From Propionibacteriales bacterium (GTDB lineage: Bacteria > Actinomycetota > Actinomycetes > Propionibacteriales > Nocardioidaceae), in the NCBI GenBank assembly GCA_009379735.1, contig WHTB01000017.1, forward strand, positions 1-32,258: a stretch of 32,258 nucleotides of DNA. The letters are read 5' to 3'. Below are positions 2,167 to 31,286 of this stretch, in pieces. Below the pieces are notes generated by a model. That model searched no databases and had not been told where the DNA came from. It saw only the letters and a program-made list of their open reading frames with translations. How positions within the stretch are numbered: position 1 is the first letter of the stretch; each line of letters starts with the position of its first letter. A program made the translations under genes and the position numbers.

Positions 2167-3828
2167 TCAGTCGGCGCGGAGCCGGGCGTCGAGGTCGCGG
2201 CGGCCGGTGCGGTCGACCGGCACCTCAAGCACCTCGATCCCCTCGGCGGGACGGGCCAGCGACGCGAGCAGCGTCTCCGGGTCGTCGATCAGCTGGTACG
2301 GCGTGCCGGTGGCTGTGCAGAGGCCGGCCAGGTCGACCTGGTGCGGGGTGCCGAACACCCGCTCGAACACCGCGGCGTGCTCCGGAGCACCCTGCTCGAG
2401 CAGCCCGAAGATGCTGCCGCCGCCGTCGTTGGCCACGACGATGGTGAGGTCGGGACGGGGCTCGTCCGGCCCGACCACCAGCCCGCCCACGTCGTGCAGG
2501 AAGGTCAGGTCGCCGAGGTAGGCGATCGCGCGCGCCGAGTCGCGGCGGGCCAGCGCGGCCCCGATCGCCGTCGACACGGTGCCGTCGATCCCGGACAGCC
2601 CGCGGTTGGCGATCACCTTGCGGCGTTCACCCACCGGGTACGGCGCGGCCATCAGGTCGAGGTCGCGGATCGGGTTCGACGACCCGACCACCAGCAGACC
2701 CGCCGCCGGTAGCCCGGCACTGACCAGGGCGGCGACGTCGTACGGCGTGAGCCCGGGCTCACTCGCCAGCACGGCGTCGACGGCCTTTGACGCGGCGCGG
2801 TCGGCCGCCTGCCAGCCGGCCAGCCAACCGGGATCCGCCGCTGCGGCGGCCCGAGCGGACCTGATCACGCGGGACGCGGCGTGACCGGCGTCCGGCCAGA
2901 CGGCGCCGGACCGGGCCACCACGACCACCTCGACGTCGGCCCGGGCGAGCAGCCGGGCGACCGGCCGTGACAACGTCGGATGGCCGTACACCACGACGCG
3001 TTCGACCTGGGCCGCCAGGTCGCCGTCGAGCAGCAGCCGGTAGCAGCGCAGCGCGTTGCCGCCAGTGCGAGCGCCCGATGTCGGCTCCGCGAGCAGTGGC
3101 CAGCCGGCCGACTCGGCCAGCAGCCGGGCCGGCGGACCGGCGTCGTCACCAGCGACCACGACCGTGCGCGGCCCGGCCGCGAGGATGGTCGGCTCGGCCC
3201 GGGACGGCGGCTCGACCGCGGTCCAGGCTCGGCCGTCGGGTCGGCCGTCGAGCGGCTCGACCCAGTCGTCCCCGTCGTCGGGCACCAGCGGGTCGACCAG
3301 CTGCACGTTGAGGTGCACCGGCCCGGGGTGCCCGGTGCGCGCGCCGGTCGCCGCCGCCAGCGCCTGCGCCGTGACCCGCCGCCACGACCGCACCTGCCCG
3401 GGCTCCCGGGTCGGGCGCAACGCGTCGCTGGACAGCCGCACGAAGCCGCCGAAGAGGTGCACCTGGTCGGTCGTCTGGTTCGCACCCGTCGCTCGCAGCT
3501 CGGCCGGCCGGTCGGCGCTGACCACGACCAGCGGTACGCCGGCGTGCGACGCCTCCATGACCGCGGGCATCAGGTTGCCGACCGCCGTACCCGAGGTCGT
3601 CACGACCGCCGCGGGCGCACCGCCCGTCTTGGCCAGGCCGAGGGCGAGGAACCCGGCGGTGCGCTCGTCGATCCGTACGTGCAGCCGCAGTCGTCCGTCC
3701 CGATCGGCGGAATGCAGCGCGAACGCCAGCGGCGCCGATCGCGACCCGGGCGCGAGCACCACCTCGCGCACGCCGCCGCGCACCAGCTCGTCGACCAGCA
3801 CCCGCGCCAACGCCGTCGATGGGTTCAC
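2167..3828 (-). CDS. menD: SEPHCHC synthase MenD
   Basis: The 553-residue thiamine-diphosphate enzyme should add 2-oxoglutarate-derived succinic semialdehyde to isochorismate. The N-terminal ThDP pyrimidine domain has LAPGSRSAPLAFAL (25-38) and the conserved glutamate in RIDERTAGFLALGLAK (E55). The C-terminal pyrophosphate domain has GDLTFLHDVGGL and NDGGGSIF, which bind ThDP and Mg2+. The open frame extends further upstream, but homology begins at MNPSTALARVLVDELVRGG. A GTG there overlaps the menC stop as GTGA, so this start was chosen and coupling with menC is likely. Confidence 0.93.
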   Translation of the reverse strand: MNPSTALARVLVDELVRGGVREVVLAPGSRSAPLAFALHSADRDGRLRLHVRIDERTAGFLALGLAKTGGAPAAVVTTSGTAVGNLMPAVMEASHAGVPLVVVSADRPAELRATGANQTTDQVHLFGGFVRLSSDALRPTREPGQVRSWRRVTAQALAAATGARTGHPGPVHLNVQLVDPLVPDDGDDWVEPLDGRPDGRAWTAVEPPSRAEPTILAAGPRTVVVAGDDAGPPARLLAESAGWPLLAEPTSGARTGGNALRCYRLLLDGDLAAQVERVVVYGHPTLSRPVARLLARADVEVVVVARSGAVWPDAGHAASRVIRSARAAAAADPGWLAGWQAADRAASKAVDAVLASEPGLTPYDVAALVSAGLPAAGLLVVGSSNPIRDLDLMAAPYPVGERRKVIANRGLSGIDGTVSTAIGAALARRDSARAIAYLGDLTFLHDVGGLVVGPDEPRPDLTIVVANDGGGSIFGLLEQGAPEHAAVFERVFGTPHQVDLAGLCTATGTPYQLIDDPETLLASLARPAEGIEVLEVPVDRTGRRDLDARLRAD

Positions 3829-15431: not shown

Positions 15432-16118
15432 TCAGGCTCCCGCGCTGAACGACTTGCCGCGGACCGGGAGCAGGTCGGCGGCCGGCTCCGAGTACGCGAC
15501 GGAGACGATCTCGTCGGCGATGTAGGTGAACGACGTAAGGCTGGCCAGGCTGCACTGCCGCCGCCGCGGGTCGTGCAGGAAGGCGCGACCCTCGACCGCC
15601 GACCGCACGATCCAGATCGGCAGCTGGTGGGAGACGACGAGCGCCTCGTGACCTCGGGCGGCGTCGCGCGCGTCGCTCATCGCCGCCAGCATCCGCGGCA
15701 CGATCTGCCGATACGGCTCACCCCACGACGGCCGCCACGGGTTGCGCAGGTGCCACCACGACGCCGGCCGGCGCAGCGCGCCGTCACCGACACCGAACGC
15801 CTTGCCCTCGAAGTAGTTGCCGGCCTCGATCACCCGGCGGTCCGTGACGATGTCCAGACCGAGCGCCTCGCCGCTCGGCCGCGCCGTCTCCTGCGCCCGG
15901 TCCAGCGGCGACGCCACCAGGTGGGTGATGTCGCGGTCGCGCACGGTCTCGGCGACCCGTTCGGCCATCACCTTGCCCAGCTCGGACAGGTGGTAGTCGG
16001 GCAGCCGCCCGTAGAGGACCCCGTCGGGGTTGTGCACCTCACCGTGCCTCAGCAGGTGGACGACGGTCGCGCGCCCGTTCGTCGCCGGGCCGGCGGGTCG
16101 GTCGTCGTGCGTGCTCAT
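15432..16118 (-). CDS. Histidine phosphatase family protein (phosphoglycerate mutase-like)
   Basis: This 228-residue protein has the histidine phosphatase signature [20 protein letters not shown] (RHG at 24-26), a second conserved segment [19 protein letters not shown] and the distal histidine motif [12 protein letters not shown]. It is not the glycolytic enzyme by context. It lies between hemL (ATGA overlap) and resA (6-base gap), the order seen in mycobacteria (Rv0525 position, from memory). The substrate is unknown. Linkage suggests a role in haem or cytochrome c physiology, but nothing in the sequence proves it. Confidence 0.88.
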
Positions 16119-17461
16119 CCAGGTCCCTCGTCGTCGGGTCGAGCGGCGGCGGCGGCCGCGGCGGCGTGCGGGACCGCCTCGGCGATGCGGTCGAGCGCAG
16201 CGTCGTCGTGTGCAGCGCTGACGAACCACGCCTCGAACGCGCTCGGCGGCAGGTAGACACCGTGCGCCAGCATCGCGTGGAAGAACGCCCGGAAGCGGTG
16301 CTGGGCCTGCCGTTGCGCGCCGTCGAAGTCGCGTACGGACGTGGCTGCCTCGTCTCCGTCCTTTACGAAGAAGACACTGAAGAGGTTCCCGGCGGCCTGC
16401 ACGACATGCGGAACCGCGGCCTCGGTGAGCGCCTTCCCGACCAGCTGCTGGACCTGTGCGGCGGCGGAGTCGACCCGGCGGTAGACGTCGGCGGTCGCCA
16501 GCCGAAGCGTGGTGAGGCCGGCGGTGACGGCGACCGGGTTCCCCGACAACGTGCCCGCCTGGTAGACCGGTCCGTCGGGCGCCAGCTGCGCCATCAGTTC
16601 GGTACGGCCGCCGAACGCCGCGGCCGGGAAGCCGCCGCCCATCACCTTGCCGAACGTCATCAGGTCGGGCCGCCAGCCGTCACCGTCGAGGCCGTGGTAG
16701 CCGCTGCGGCTGACCCGGAACCCGGTCATCACCTCGTCGCTGACCATCAGTACGCCGTGTGCGGCGCAGGTCTCGGCGAGGAACCGGTTGAACCCGGCCT
16801 CCGGGGTGACCACGCCCATGTTGCCTGGCGCGGCCTCGGTGATCAGGCAGGCGATCCGGTCGCCGTGCTCGGCGAACGCGGCGGAGACCGCGGCCCGGTC
16901 GTTGTACGGGAGGACCAGGGTGGCCGCCGTCGCCGCCGCGGGCACCCCCGGGGTACCGGGCAGCCCGAACGTGACCACTCCGGACCCGGCCGCCGCGAGC
17001 AGGGAGTCGACGTGCCCGTGGTAGCAGCCGGCGAACTTCACCACGAGGTCGCGGCCGGTGACCCCACGGGCCAGCCGGATGGCCGACATCGTCGCCTCGG
17101 TGCCGGAGGACACCAACCGGACCGAGTCGACCGGCGTACGGTCGACGATCTCCTCGGCCAGCTCGACCTCGGGCCGGGTGGGCGCGCCGTACGACGTGCC
17201 GGCGCCGACCGCGCTCCGCACCGCGGCGACCACGTCGGGGTGTGCGTGCCCGAGCAGCATCGGTCCCCACGAGCAGACCAGGTCGACGTACTCCCGACCG
17301 TCGGCGTCGACCAGGAACGGGCCGCGCGCCGACGCGATGAAGCGCGGTGTGCCGCCGACCGCACCGAACGCGCGAACCGGTGAGTTGACCCCACCCGGCG
17401 TCACCGCGCGAGCGCGGTCGAACAGCTGCTGGGAGTGCGGCGCGTCGGCGGGGTACGGCAT
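16115..17461 (-). CDS. hemL: Glutamate-1-semialdehyde 2,1-aminomutase HemL
   Basis: This 448-residue class III PLP aminotransferase makes 5-aminolevulinate from glutamate-1-semialdehyde, the step after HemA. The signature [19 protein letters not shown] is at 21-39. PLP contacts include [15 protein letters not shown], and the Schiff-base lysine is K272 in [14 protein letters not shown]. The ATG at 17461 was chosen because homology starts at about residue 10. An in-frame ATG at 17500 would add 13 non-conserved residues. The gene starts a six-gene operon running through ccsB, tying haem supply to cytochrome c assembly. A three-codon open frame (ATG at 17472) ends in the hemL start as TGATG. Confidence 0.95.
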
Positions 17462-17595
17462 CACCGAGCCATTGTCGCCTGCACGGCCGGCTGGCTCCAC
17501 CCGGGGTCACGGTGGCCTACGCGGCGTCTGTAAACGTCTGTGACACTCGGTGTGCAAGATGGGTCACATCCGGATAGACCGCGTCATGACCCTCG

Positions 17596-17623
17596 CGTAA
17601 CCTCGTTTCCTGAGTGTCGTTGA
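17596..17623 (+). promoter_or_regulatory. Predicted SigBldN-type promoter of the lytic transglycosylase gene
   Basis: CGTAAC (17596-17601) and CGTTGA (17618-17623) are separated by exactly 16 bases. As I recall it, the reported Streptomyces SigBldN consensus is CGTAAC-N16-CGTTGA. The expected start is near 17630, leaving an untranslated leader of about 53 bases before the ATG at 17683. A BldN-like sigma gene lies in this window at 30438. An overlapping TAGACC-N17-TAACCT could act as a housekeeping promoter. Confidence 0.65.
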
Positions 17624-17635
17624 CCAGGCACGAGG
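17601..17635. repeat. Inverted repeat overlapping the SigBldN-type promoter
   Basis: CCTCGT (17601-17606) pairs with ACGAGG (17630-17635), and CCTG (17609-17612) with CAGG (17625-17628). It spans the spacer and -10 of the predicted promoter, so it could be an operator on DNA rather than an RNA hairpin. Confidence 0.4.
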
Positions 17636-17682
17636 GATGAACCGTGCGAAACGGACACGTGGAGTAACCGGAGGGAACGTAG

Positions 17683-18978
17683 ATGGGACAGGGACGCCGA
17701 CGGCGCACGCCGCGCTGGCGAAAGGCGACGGCGCTGCTGCCGCTCGTACTGCTGTCCGGAGCGTGGTCCGCCAACGCCGCCTCCGACCGGACCCCCGAGA
17801 CCGAGCAGGACTCGGGCGCTCCCGGCGTGCCGACCGTGCCGGCCGAGATCTTCGACGAGCCCGCCAGCGTCGCGCTGCCGGAGGGCACCGGCAAGCCCGG
17901 GTCGGCGACCAGCCTCGCGTACACGCCGTTCGACGGCTCCCGCGGTTCGGCTGCTGGTCCGGCCGTCGCCGGCAACGGCATCCCCACCTCCGCCCTGCTC
18001 GCCTACCAGCGGGCCGCCGACATCCTCAACCAGGCCGACCCGGCCTGCCACCTCGACTGGTCGCTGGTCGCCGCGATCGGCCGGGTCGAGTCCGACCACG
18101 GCCGCTACGCCGGCAACGCGCTGAACGAGGACGGCCGGGCGGTGCCCGGTATCTACGGCGTACCCCTGACCGGCGCCGGCAACCTCGCCCGGATCACCGA
18201 CACCGACGGCGGCGCGTTCGACCGCGACGTCTCGTACGACCGCGCGGTCGGCCCGATGCAGTTCATCCCGGGCACCTGGAGGCTGGTCGGCGTCGACTCC
18301 GACCTCGACGGCAAGAAGGACCCGCAAGACATCGACGACGCGGCGACGGCGACGGCGGTCTACCTGTGTGCAGGTGCCGGCGACCTGTCCACCGAGGCCG
18401 GCCAGCGCGCCGCGGTGCTGCGTTACAACCACAGCCAGAGCTATGTCGACCTGGTGCTCTCGATCGCCAAGGCGTACGCCGGCGGCAACTACGCGCCGGT
18501 GCCGAACGGCACCCCGACCACGACCACGCTGACCCTCGCCAAGCCCGCCGCGAAGGCCAAGCCGGCCAAGGCCAAGTCCAGCAAGACCGGTAAGAAGAGC
18601 GGCGCGGCCACGACCAAGCCCGACAACCGTTCCAGCGAGCCGAGCACCGGCGGCGGATCGAGTGAGCCGAGCACCGGTGGTGGTGGCAGCAGTGGCGGGT
18701 CCAACGACGACGGCTCGACCGCGACGCCGGCGCCCCAGGCTCCCGAGCCGGTCAAGAAGGTCGTTGAGAAGCTCGAGACCGTCGCAGAGGCGACCGCGTT
18801 CTGCGCCAAGGAGCTGCAGGGCAAGACCGGCGTCACCCAGAAGATGATCGACGCGTGCGGCGCCGAGCTGGTCGGCAAGACCGTCGCGGAGGCGACCAGC
18901 CTGCTCAGCGGTTCGCTCAAGGACGTCCTCGGGCGACTCGGGCTCAGCGACCTGCTCTGCCTCGGCATCCTCTGCTGA
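17683..18978 (+). CDS. Secreted lytic murein transglycosylase
   Basis: This 431-residue exported protein has a basic N-terminus and a hydrophobic signal (LLPLVLLSGAWSANA, cleavage near 32). The transglycosylase domain spans about 100-270, with catalytic glutamate E136 in LVAAIGRVESDHGRYAG and the conserved GPMQFIPGTW (190-199). A Lys/Ala then Ser/Gly-rich linker (about 280-345) leads to a C-terminal segment of about 80 residues, which has several cysteines and ends DLLCLGILC. I do not recognise that segment. The ATG has GGAGGGAAC upstream. The upstream region carries an exact match to a SigBldN-type promoter, so expression is likely tied to cell-wall or developmental control. It stands alone between divergent hemL and convergent hemB. 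Confidence 0.88.
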   Translation: MGQGRRRRTPRWRKATALLPLVLLSGAWSANAASDRTPETEQDSGAPGVPTVPAEIFDEPASVALPEGTGKPGSATSLAYTPFDGSRGSAAGPAVAGNGIPTSALLAYQRAADILNQADPACHLDWSLVAAIGRVESDHGRYAGNALNEDGRAVPGIYGVPLTGAGNLARITDTDGGAFDRDVSYDRAVGPMQFIPGTWRLVGVDSDLDGKKDPQDIDDAATATAVYLCAGAGDLSTEAGQRAAVLRYNHSQSYVDLVLSIAKAYAGGNYAPVPNGTPTTTTLTLAKPAAKAKPAKAKSSKTGKKSGAATTKPDNRSSEPSTGGGSSEPSTGGGGSSGGSNDDGSTATPAPQAPEPVKKVVEKLETVAEATAFCAKELQGKTGVTQKMIDACGAELVGKTVAEATSLLSGSLKDVLGRLGLSDLLCLGILC

Positions 18979-19000: not shown

Positions 19001-19067
19001 CCCGATGAGTGTGACGACTTCGACGCGACACGCCGGCGTGTCTGTCGAAGTCGTCACACTCATCGGG
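19001..19067. repeat. 24-bp-arm palindrome between the transglycosylase gene and hemB
   Basis: The arms 19001-19024 and 19044-19067 are perfectly complementary over 24 bases. They enclose GACACGC (19027-19033) and GCGTGTC (19036-19042). The central 31 bases match those at 15-45 except at one base, and differences in the outer arm are compensated. It lies between two convergent genes, 22 bases after one stop and 12 before the other. No T-run follows. Confidence 0.85.
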
Positions 19068-19079
19068 TCGGGGTCAGCG

Positions 19080-20054
19080 TCAGCGGATCAGGTGGGCGGC
19101 CTCGGTGGCCCAGTAGGTCAGCACCACGGACGCGCCGGCCCGCCGGACTGACGTCAGCACCTCCACGATCGCGGCCTCGCGGTTGATCCAGCCGTTCGCG
19201 GCGGCGGCCTCCACCATGGAGTACTCGCCGGAGATGTTGTACGCACCGACCGGCACGTCGACGTTGGCCCGGACCGCCGCGACCAGGTCGAGATAGCCCA
19301 TCGCCGGCTTCACCATCACCAGGTCAGCACCCTCCTCGACGTCGAGGCGCGCCTCACGGACCGCCTCGACGGCGTTGGCCGGGTCCTGCTGGTAGGTCCG
19401 CCGGTCGCCCTCCAGCGAGGAGGCGACCGCCTCCCGGAACGGGCCGTAGAACGCCGAGGCGTACTTCGCTGCGTACGCGAAGATGCCGGTGTCGGTGTGG
19501 CCGGCGGCGTCGAGCACCGACCGGACGTGCCCGACCTGGCCGTCCATCATGCCGCTCGGGCCGAGCAGGTGCGCACCCGCCTCGGCCTGCGCGACGGCCA
19601 TCCGGCCGTACACCTCGAGCGTCGCGTCGTTGTCGACCCGGCCGTCGGGCGTGAGTACGCCGCAGTGCCCATGGTCGGTGAACTCGTCGAGGCACAGGTC
19701 GGCCATCAGCACAGTGGCATCGCCGACCTCGGCGACGAGCTCGCGGAGCGCGACGTTGAGGATGCCGTCAGGGTCGACGCCACCGGAGCCGGTCGCATCC
19801 TTGGCCAGCGGCACGCCGTACAGCATCAGCCCGCTGACGCCGGCCGCCACAGCCTCGACCGCGGCCTTGCGCAACGAGTCGCTGGTGTGCTGGACGACGC
19901 CCGGCATGCTGACGATCGGCACCGGCTCGGACGCACCCTCGCGGACGAACATCGGCAGCACCAGATGGCGCGGCTCGACACTCGTCTCGGCGACCAGCCG
20001 GCGCATCGCCGGAGTCGTACGCAGGCGGCGCGGCCGCTGCGCGGGGTAGCCCAT
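19080..20054 (-). CDS. hemB: Delta-aminolevulinic acid dehydratase HemB (porphobilinogen synthase)
   Basis: This 324-residue enzyme condenses two 5-aminolevulinates to porphobilinogen. The Schiff-base lysines are K197 ([17 protein letters not shown]) and K249 ([13 protein letters not shown]). The metal-site segment is the cysteine-rich type, [15 protein letters not shown] (C121, C131), which points to zinc. The ATG at 20054 is preceded by GAGAGGA, which selects it over the longer open frame. It follows cobA/hemD by 20 bases and is the last gene of the rex-hem operon here. Confidence 0.95.
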
Positions 20055-20074
20055 GTCGGGAGGTCCTCTCCGGC

Positions 20075-21886
20075 TCAGGTCGCCTTGCGGCGGGCGCCGT
20101 TGCGACGCTCCGAGGGCCGGGTGACCGGCTCGCCCGCGTCGATCATCGACAGTCGACGGGCCGCCCCGAACTCGGCGAGCGCGTCGGTCAGGTCCTCGAT
20201 CGACGGCGACGGGGCCATCACGTCGACCCGCAGGCCGTGCTCCTCGGCGGTCTTGACCGTCGCCGGACCGATGCACGCGATCACCGTCGACGCATGCGGC
20301 TTGCCGGCGATGCCGACCAGGTTGCGCACCGTCGACGAGGACGTGAAGACGACGGCGTCGAACTTGCCGGTCTTGATCGCCTCGCGGGTCGGCGCCGGCG
20401 GCGGGGCCGCGCGCACCGTGCGGTAGGCGGTGACGTCGTCACATTCCCACCCGAGCTCGTGCAGACCGGCCACCAGCGTCTCGGTGGCGATGTCGGCACG
20501 CGGCAGGAACACCCGGTTGATCGGGTCGAGGACCTCGTCGAACGGCGGCCATTCCTCGAGCAGCCCGCGGGCGGACTGCTCACCGGACGGCACCAGGTCG
20601 GCGCGGATCCCCCACGCTGCAACGGCTTCTGCGGTCTTGTCGCCGACCGCCGCGATCTTCAGACCGCTGAACGCGCGAGCGTCGAGACCGTACTCGTCGA
20701 ACTTCTCGCGCACCGCCTTGACCGCGTTGACGGACGTGAACGCGATCCATTCGTACCGGCCCTCAACCAGTCCGCGGATCGCCTTGTCCATCTGCTGCGG
20801 GTTGCGCGGCGGCTCGACCGAGATGGTCGGAACCTCCTCCGGCACGCCACCGTGCTCGCGGAGCCGGATCGACAACGACGCGGCCTGCTCCTTGGTGCGC
20901 GGCACCAGCACCCGCCAGCCGAACAGCGGCTTGGTCTCGAACCACGACAGCGTCGCCCGCAGGTCGACGACATCGCCGACCACGGTGACCGCCGGCGGCT
21001 TCACCTTGGCTGCCCTGGCGTCCGCGGCGATGCCCGCGAGCGTCGACACCACCGTGTGCTGCGACGTGGTCGTGCCGACGCTCGTCATCGCCACCGGCGT
21101 CTCCGGAGACCGGCCGGCCAGCACCAGGTGCTCGGCGACCTCGCGGATCGACCCGACCGCCGACAGCAGCACCAGGGTCTGGTCGCTGCCATAGCGCGAC
21201 CAGTCGATCTTGCTCTCCGCGACGTTGACGACGGCCACCTCACGCCGGGTGCGCGTGGTCAGCGGAACGCCGGCGTACGCGGCGACACCGGTGACCGCCG
21301 AGACGCCCGGCACGATCTCGAAGCCGACGCCCGCCTTGACACACGCCTGGGCCTCCTCCGGCCCGGTGGCGTACAGCCACGGGTCGCCGGTGAGCAGGCG
21401 TACGACATGGGCGGCACCCTTCGCGGCGCGTACGACGACCTTGCCGCGAGAGGCGTGGGTCAGCGGCTGGCCGTCCTCACCGAACCCGCCGTCGACCACC
21501 TCGCCGGTGAAGTCGGGCCGCACAGTGCGCAGCAGGTCGGCATGCGCGGCGGACTCGGTCACGACCACGTCGGCGTCCCGGATGACCTCCAGTGCCCGCA
21601 GCGTGAGCAGGTCGGGGTCGCCGGGACCCGTGCCGACGAACGAGACGAATCCCAACGGCCTGGCCGGTTTGGCCGCCGGCCCCTTCTTCGCCGTGGCCGG
21701 CTTGCGAGTCGTCGACGCCGTGGTCCGCGCCGATGACGTCGTGGTGGTCTTCGCGGAGGTCGTCTTGCGGGCGTGCGCGCTCTGCACCGACGCCCGGCTC
21801 TTGCGGGTCGACGTGCTCGACGTGGTGGTCGTGGTCCTGCTCGTCACTACGCTCTTCTTCTTTCTGGCTGGCCGTGGGGCGGTCAT
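20075..21886 (-). CDS. hemD: Bifunctional uroporphyrinogen-III C-methyltransferase / uroporphyrinogen-III synthase
   Basis: This 603-residue fusion has a SAM-dependent methyltransferase (CobA/SUMT) domain at about 79-320: [58 protein letters not shown]. It is followed by a HemD domain at about 335-590, with [38 protein letters not shown] and [13 protein letters not shown]. HemD closes hydroxymethylbilane to uroporphyrinogen III; the SUMT part would divert it to sirohaem or cobalamin. Residues 1-77 form a basic low-complexity tail with about 20 Thr, 19 Lys/Arg and no acidic residue. The start ATG overlaps the hemC stop as ATGA, which fixes the start and keeps the tail in the protein. Confidence 0.92.
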
Positions 21887-31257: not shown

Positions 31258-31286
31258 CGTAACCTCCTATCGGTCTCCGTCGTTGA
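31258..31286 (+). promoter_or_regulatory. Predicted SigBldN-type promoter of the candidate anti-sigma gene
   Basis: CGTAAC (31258-31263) and CGTTGA (31281-31286) are separated by 17 bases, one more than the remembered consensus spacing. They sit in the gap between the sigma gene and the next gene, 49 bases before its GTG. In Streptomyces rsbN is reported to be transcribed by SigBldN, so feedback control is a natural reading. Confidence 0.6.

Follow-up and report, generated by a model that had tools for sequence, protein, structure and literature searches.

A probable SigBldN-type promoter, conserved together with its sigma factor, precedes a cell-wall lytic transglycosylase gene in Nocardioidaceae

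Results

The sequence CGTAAC-N16-CGTTGA at positions 17596–17623 of the window, by which we mean the whole 32,258-nucleotide stretch of DNA analyzed here, is very probably a working SigBldN promoter of a wall-cutting transglycosylase, and as such would belong to a regulon for envelope remodeling. A preliminary description of this DNA had placed the motif 59 bases ahead of the transglycosylase ATG and had matched it to the SigBldN consensus. Both the coordinates and the consensus were found to be correct, the published motif being the same CGTAAC-N16-CGTTGA, known in that study from the bldM promoter only (PMC2375139). The boxes lie on the + strand around a 16-base spacer (17602–17617), which is an exact instance of the 16- or 17-base arrangement that identifies a SigBldN promoter, and the 59 bases between CGTTGA and the ATG at 17683 include a GGAGGG ribosome-binding site (17670–17675). 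Transcription is predicted to start near position 17630. Two further properties that mark such a promoter were also found: the genome encodes a BldN-type sigma factor, and the motif is lost where the sigma factor is lost. Coordinates are collected in Table 1.

Table 1. Positions of the putative promoter elements and of the genes around them in the window
Feature	Position	Strand	Basis
hemL, divergent from the transglycosylase gene, conserved neighbor	16115..17500	-	TIGR00713 over cut-off; synteny
-35 element CGTAAC, transglycosylase promoter	17596..17601	+	Exact match to published SigBldN motif; conserved ahead of orthologues
-10 element CGTTGA	17618..17623	+	16 bases 3' of the -35 element
Secreted lytic transglycosylase, MltB/Slt35 type, 431 residues, catalytic residue probably Glu136	17683..18978	+	Pfam SLT_2, invariant Glu136, fold match
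hemB, conserved downstream neighbor	19080..20276	-	Porphobilinogen synthase family over cut-off; synteny
BldN-type ECF sigma factor, N-terminal extension of ~80 residues	30438..31217	+	Best NCBIfam TIGR02952; best solved relative 6dxo SigBldN
Second SigBldN-type promoter, CGTAAC-N17-CGTTGA	31258..31286	+	Exact; same place in 77/80 family sigma loci
rsbN-like anti-sigma gene, DUF5667, one hydrophobic segment	31336..32258, continues past window end	+	Position after sigma gene; PF18915 44.8 bits

Exact matches to the motif with spacers of 15–17 bases were counted and compared with the number expected from the base composition of the window. Two were found in the window, far above the 0.003 expected; the second, between the sigma gene and the rsbN-like gene, does not appear in the preliminary description. 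The genome-wide search suggested there returned four exact sites in the 4.5 Mb of the same genome versus 0.46 expected, while a reversed control pattern gave no exact match in that genome. Across 39 genomes, this one included, 65 exact sites were detected versus 11 for the control pattern.

The product of the gene downstream of the promoter has a signal-peptide-like N-terminus and scores 39.2 bits against Pfam SLT_2, over the curated cut-off of 24.3. Glu136, which lies in the ES motif of the sequence RVESDHG, was invariant in two alignments and is probably the catalytic residue. An AlphaFold model was confident for residues ∼101–270 and also for a small helical domain at the C-terminus. Among solved structures it comes nearest to SltB2, Slt35, and SltB3, the top matches to SltB2 and Slt35 placing it with the lysozyme-like folds; the TM-scores are low (0.23–0.36) because a good part of the model is disordered and the solved proteins carry other domains. 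The narrower NCBIfam cut-offs for MltB and MltB_2 were not reached (30.4 versus 248.45 and 25.4 versus 281.4 bits, respectively), so the protein is referred to here as MltB-like rather than filed as MltB. It thus resembles the MltB/Slt35 and SltB transglycosylases in its SLT_2 domain, invariant Glu, and fold match, but differs from them in these sub-cut-off scores, in its disordered linker, and in its small C-terminal helical domain, which has two conserved cysteines. We infer that the enzyme cuts peptidoglycan. Just 3' of its gene, a long inverted repeat was observed at 19004–19066 (CCCGATGAGTGTGACGACTTCGAC ... GTCGAAGTCGTCACACTCATCGGG), which is probably a terminator or a repeat element.

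A sigma gene of the matching type had been reported ∼13 kb away in the window, and the gene at that location is indeed BldN-type. Its product scores 183.9 bits against NCBIfam TIGR02952 (BldN), with the next family at 96.3; this is below the equivalog cut-off of 206.45, hence the term BldN-type. Among solved structures it best matches the SigBldN chain of 6dxo (E = 3.9e-53, next match 2.9e-14), and a conserved GL-ALR motif is found within its N-terminal extension. The gene directly 3' of the sigma gene has a SigBldN-type promoter of its own, as does rsbN of Streptomyces venezuelae, which has its own SigBldN-dependent promoter (PMC4255298). No sequence match was detected between its product and the RsbN of 6dxo, RsbN being described as highly divergent (PMC4255298). 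The sub-cut-off sigma score and the missing match to solved RsbN both count against reading the site as a SigBldN promoter. On the other hand, the motif (at most two mismatches) lies near the end of the sigma gene in nearly all Nocardioidaceae sigma loci, and 75 of the 77 positive loci have a 17-base spacer. Of 27 further genomes, 23 also have it at the rsbN position, among them Kribbella, Dermatophilaceae, Blastococcus, and Streptomyces amritsarensis. This recurrence links motif and sigma factor without reliance on the preliminary description.

A second BldN-like ECF sigma gene, 59% identical to the one in the window, was observed elsewhere in the genome (contig C224, 5992–6594, minus strand); it may be a real paralogue or contamination of the 483-contig assembly. 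That the promoter is real but used chiefly by some other or further sigma factor, such as this one, is nonetheless improbable: nearly all other family genomes, including nearly all with the motif, encode just one BldN-type sigma factor, the presence of the motif tracks that sigma gene even at an unlinked ATPase gene (see below), and the C224 copy could itself be a contaminant.

The preliminary description had staked the promoter on the motif being kept ahead of transglycosylase orthologues, and it is kept. In sigma-bearing Nocardioidaceae genomes, the motif with at most two mismatches precedes 72 of the 87 best-matching transglycosylase genes (16 exact, 39 with one mismatch, 17 with two), a count that, like the other family counts, is drawn from related genomes and so from non-independent samples, a relatedness for which the p values are uncorrected. 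It was found in 11 of the 16 genera examined, mostly 70–130 bases upstream of the estimated start. By comparison, it was detected ahead of 0 of 11 transglycosylase genes in family genomes without the sigma factor and ahead of 0 of 20 transglycosylase paralogues, recent duplicates included. The 15 genes without a clear motif despite the presence of the sigma factor, which include five whole genera, speak against a SigBldN promoter; several of them have a weaker version. Dinucleotide shuffles came within one mismatch of the motif in 0.3% of cases and within two in 2.7%. Pairwise identity between promoters was 0.87–0.90 in the boxes and 0.37–0.39 in the spacer, and because the boxes were the criterion by which sites were picked, significance is judged by the shuffle rate rather than by the ratio of these identities. 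In a phylogenetic tree the orthologues form one clade (support 0.965) that contains no sigma-less genome of the sample. Among genomes at least 95% complete, 70 have the sigma factor and a clade member, 6 the sigma factor only, none a clade member only, and 14 neither, some weak matches in these counts having been assigned by score rather than by tree.

Two variations were seen in this survey. In one locus (L097, ∼2178–3146), a tandem second transglycosylase gene lies beside the orthologue, and this copy has no promoter motif. In one genus (e.g. L094, L112, L118), the -35 element reads CGTGAC at the transglycosylase gene, CATAAC at rsbN, and CGTAAC at the ATPase gene. A genus-wide shift of sigma specificity was rejected because the ATPase promoter of the same genus retains CGTAAC; the pattern is instead one of promoter-by-promoter drift.

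MtrA boxes contain GTAAC repeats, and this response regulator controls wall hydrolases in other actinobacteria, so CGTAAC could be half of an MtrA box and the envelope theme a sign of MtrA control. A GTAAC-N5-7-GTAAC direct repeat was present in only 1 of 87 upstream regions, however, and the partner box TCGTTG at 16–17 bases has the geometry of a promoter and vanishes with the sigma factor. The MtrA explanation accordingly has the very slimmest of chances.

In family genomes the transglycosylase and sigma genes are usually 10–14 kb apart, so that their joint loss, taken alone, could be linkage and a single event. A motif without function, kept by chance or by its linkage to the sigma gene, is nevertheless highly improbable. 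The boxes are retained (identity ∼0.9) where the spacers have diverged (∼0.4), the paralogues and shuffles described above behave otherwise than the orthologues, and the motif is found beyond this synteny as well. Seven Dermatophilaceae/Intrasporangiaceae genomes (Pedococcus, Phycicoccus, Terrabacter, and MAGs) have it at a related transglycosylase gene that is not in the hem locus, and the sigma factor is present in all seven; two Knoellia species with proteins of the same clade have neither sigma factor nor motif. The Dermatophilaceae proteins form a clade of their own, apart from the Nocardioidaceae–Kribbella orthologues, which means that the link between sigma factor and transglycosylase either dates back very far or arose on two occasions. 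In Nocardioides insulae, the orthologue is kept between hemL and hemB, and sigma factor and motif are both absent. The chance or linkage explanation is further weakened by a promoter on another contig (L002:1501–2700; C190, from 28032), which precedes a Mce/MlaF-type ATPase gene followed by an MlaE permease gene. Its motif was found in 55 of 58 sigma-bearing genomes from several families and in 0 of 12 sigma-less genomes, the latter spanning at least three separate lineages (Mumia, an Aeromicrobium group, and Knoellia).

Of the four exact sites in the genome, the fourth is located between guaA and a gene for a GMC oxidoreductase (L001:1501–1650; C147, from 21399). Hairpins follow the motif of this region in 13 family genomes; most have CUCCCUCC-like loops, and the final hairpin looks like a terminator. 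The orientation is flipped in two of the 13. For three examples, none of 200 shuffles folded as well (z -3.6 to -4.5), and in the last hairpin 7 of 11 pairs show two-sided, pair-keeping changes. Assignment to the Rfam 6C family (RF01066) was rejected, with 28 bits versus a gathering score of 47 in one genome and no match in another. The RNA is like 6C RNA in having hairpins with C-rich loops, and unlike it in adjoining guaA and in having a SigBldN-type promoter. The motif beside guaA was absent from four sigma-less genomes, but also from several sigma-bearing ones. This candidate small RNA is probably a SigBldN target.

Discussion

The distribution of the motif suggests a model in which the BldN-type sigma factor, once freed from the RsbN-like membrane anti-sigma factor, presumably in response to a signal, would become active and transcribe the transglycosylase gene from ∼17630, the enzyme then cutting peptidoglycan. 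It would also transcribe its own anti-sigma gene from the promoter at 31258–31286, creating negative feedback, drive the Mce/MlaF-type lipid-transport ATPase operon elsewhere in the genome, and probably drive the C-rich-loop RNA as well. The joint output would be remodeling of the wall and of the envelope lipids. SigBldN would then be an envelope-remodeling regulator in Nocardioidaceae, where chaplins are nearly absent.

That the sigma factor controls wall remodeling had been suggested at the outset, and the suggestion has gained support from the conservation of the motif at the transglycosylase gene, from its disappearance with the sigma factor, and from the chaplin survey. A Streptomyces-type regulon in which the sigma factor controls chaplins presupposes chaplin genes, and none (PF03777) was found in the genome; of the 121 genomes of the family, 5 have them, and these 5 belong to a single genus. 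Chaplins being the main known targets, wall remodeling without a chaplin program is a reasonable reading. In the one genus that has them, repeated chaplin domains are arranged in single long frames of 310–751 codons (L306–L309), whereas Streptomyces chaplins are short.

Some Nocardioidaceae and Kribbella are mycelial, which would suit a reading in which the promoter depends on SigBldN but the gene serves development (aerial growth, sporulation) rather than general wall remodeling. Motif and sigma factor are nevertheless both present in Dermatophilaceae that grow as rods or cocci, such as Pedococcus and Terrabacter, and 116 of the 121 family genomes are without chaplins. A developmental role for the gene is therefore unlikely, even though SigBldN is a developmental sigma factor in Streptomyces (PMC4255298).

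Envelope remodeling as the role of the sigma factor, if correct, would matter for how BldN is viewed, since it has so far been regarded as a sigma factor of development, linked to aerial hyphae and to complex morphology. Nocardioidaceae and Dermatophilaceae are largely non-sporulating. In the present data, BldN-type sigma factors occur widely in these two groups, whereas convincing bldN orthologues were found only in complex genera according to Chater and Chandra (PMC4255298). Conserved wall and lipid targets in chaplin-less relatives point to a testable second, and perhaps older, role of BldN, and offer a case of one sigma factor's regulon differing between lineages, with candidate direct targets that can be named: two promoters in one 32 kb window, the ATPase operon, and the RNA. 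More tentatively, and as a possibility that we do not favor outright, SigBldN may at root be an envelope-remodeling sigma factor of non-sporulating actinobacteria, acting on the transglycosylase, the Mce/MlaF transporter, the anti-sigma factor, and the C-rich-loop RNA, with control of chaplins and rodlins being a retargeting of this earlier circuit on the Streptomyces side.

The closest known system is SigBldN–RsbN of Streptomyces, whose targets are bldM, the chaplins, the rodlins, and rsbN (Bibb 2000 and 2012, reviewed in PMC4255298). The system described here is like it in the sigma family, in the motif CGTAAC-N16/17-CGTTGA, and in the adjoining anti-sigma gene with such a promoter of its own. 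Unlike the Streptomyces regulon, it occurs in a genome without chaplins, and its promoter is found on a transglycosylase gene, a Mce/MlaF ATPase gene, and a candidate RNA. In the genus of S. amritsarensis, the motif was found upstream of 0 of 22 transglycosylase homologues, which may not be strict orthologues and represent 22 of 30 loci. Since the motif at the rsbN position is common to both sides, and chaplins and the transglycosylase motif are not, the two systems have promoter and anti-sigma arrangement in common but differ in their targets. A transglycosylase may already figure among the BldN targets predicted in Streptomyces by SIGffRid. As for Streptomyces SigE, its sigma family, promoter, and partner proteins all differ from those of SigBldN. 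The likeness to its envelope-stress regulon is at most one in the kind of targets, SigE also being an ECF sigma factor that governs cell-envelope genes (PMC6767563).
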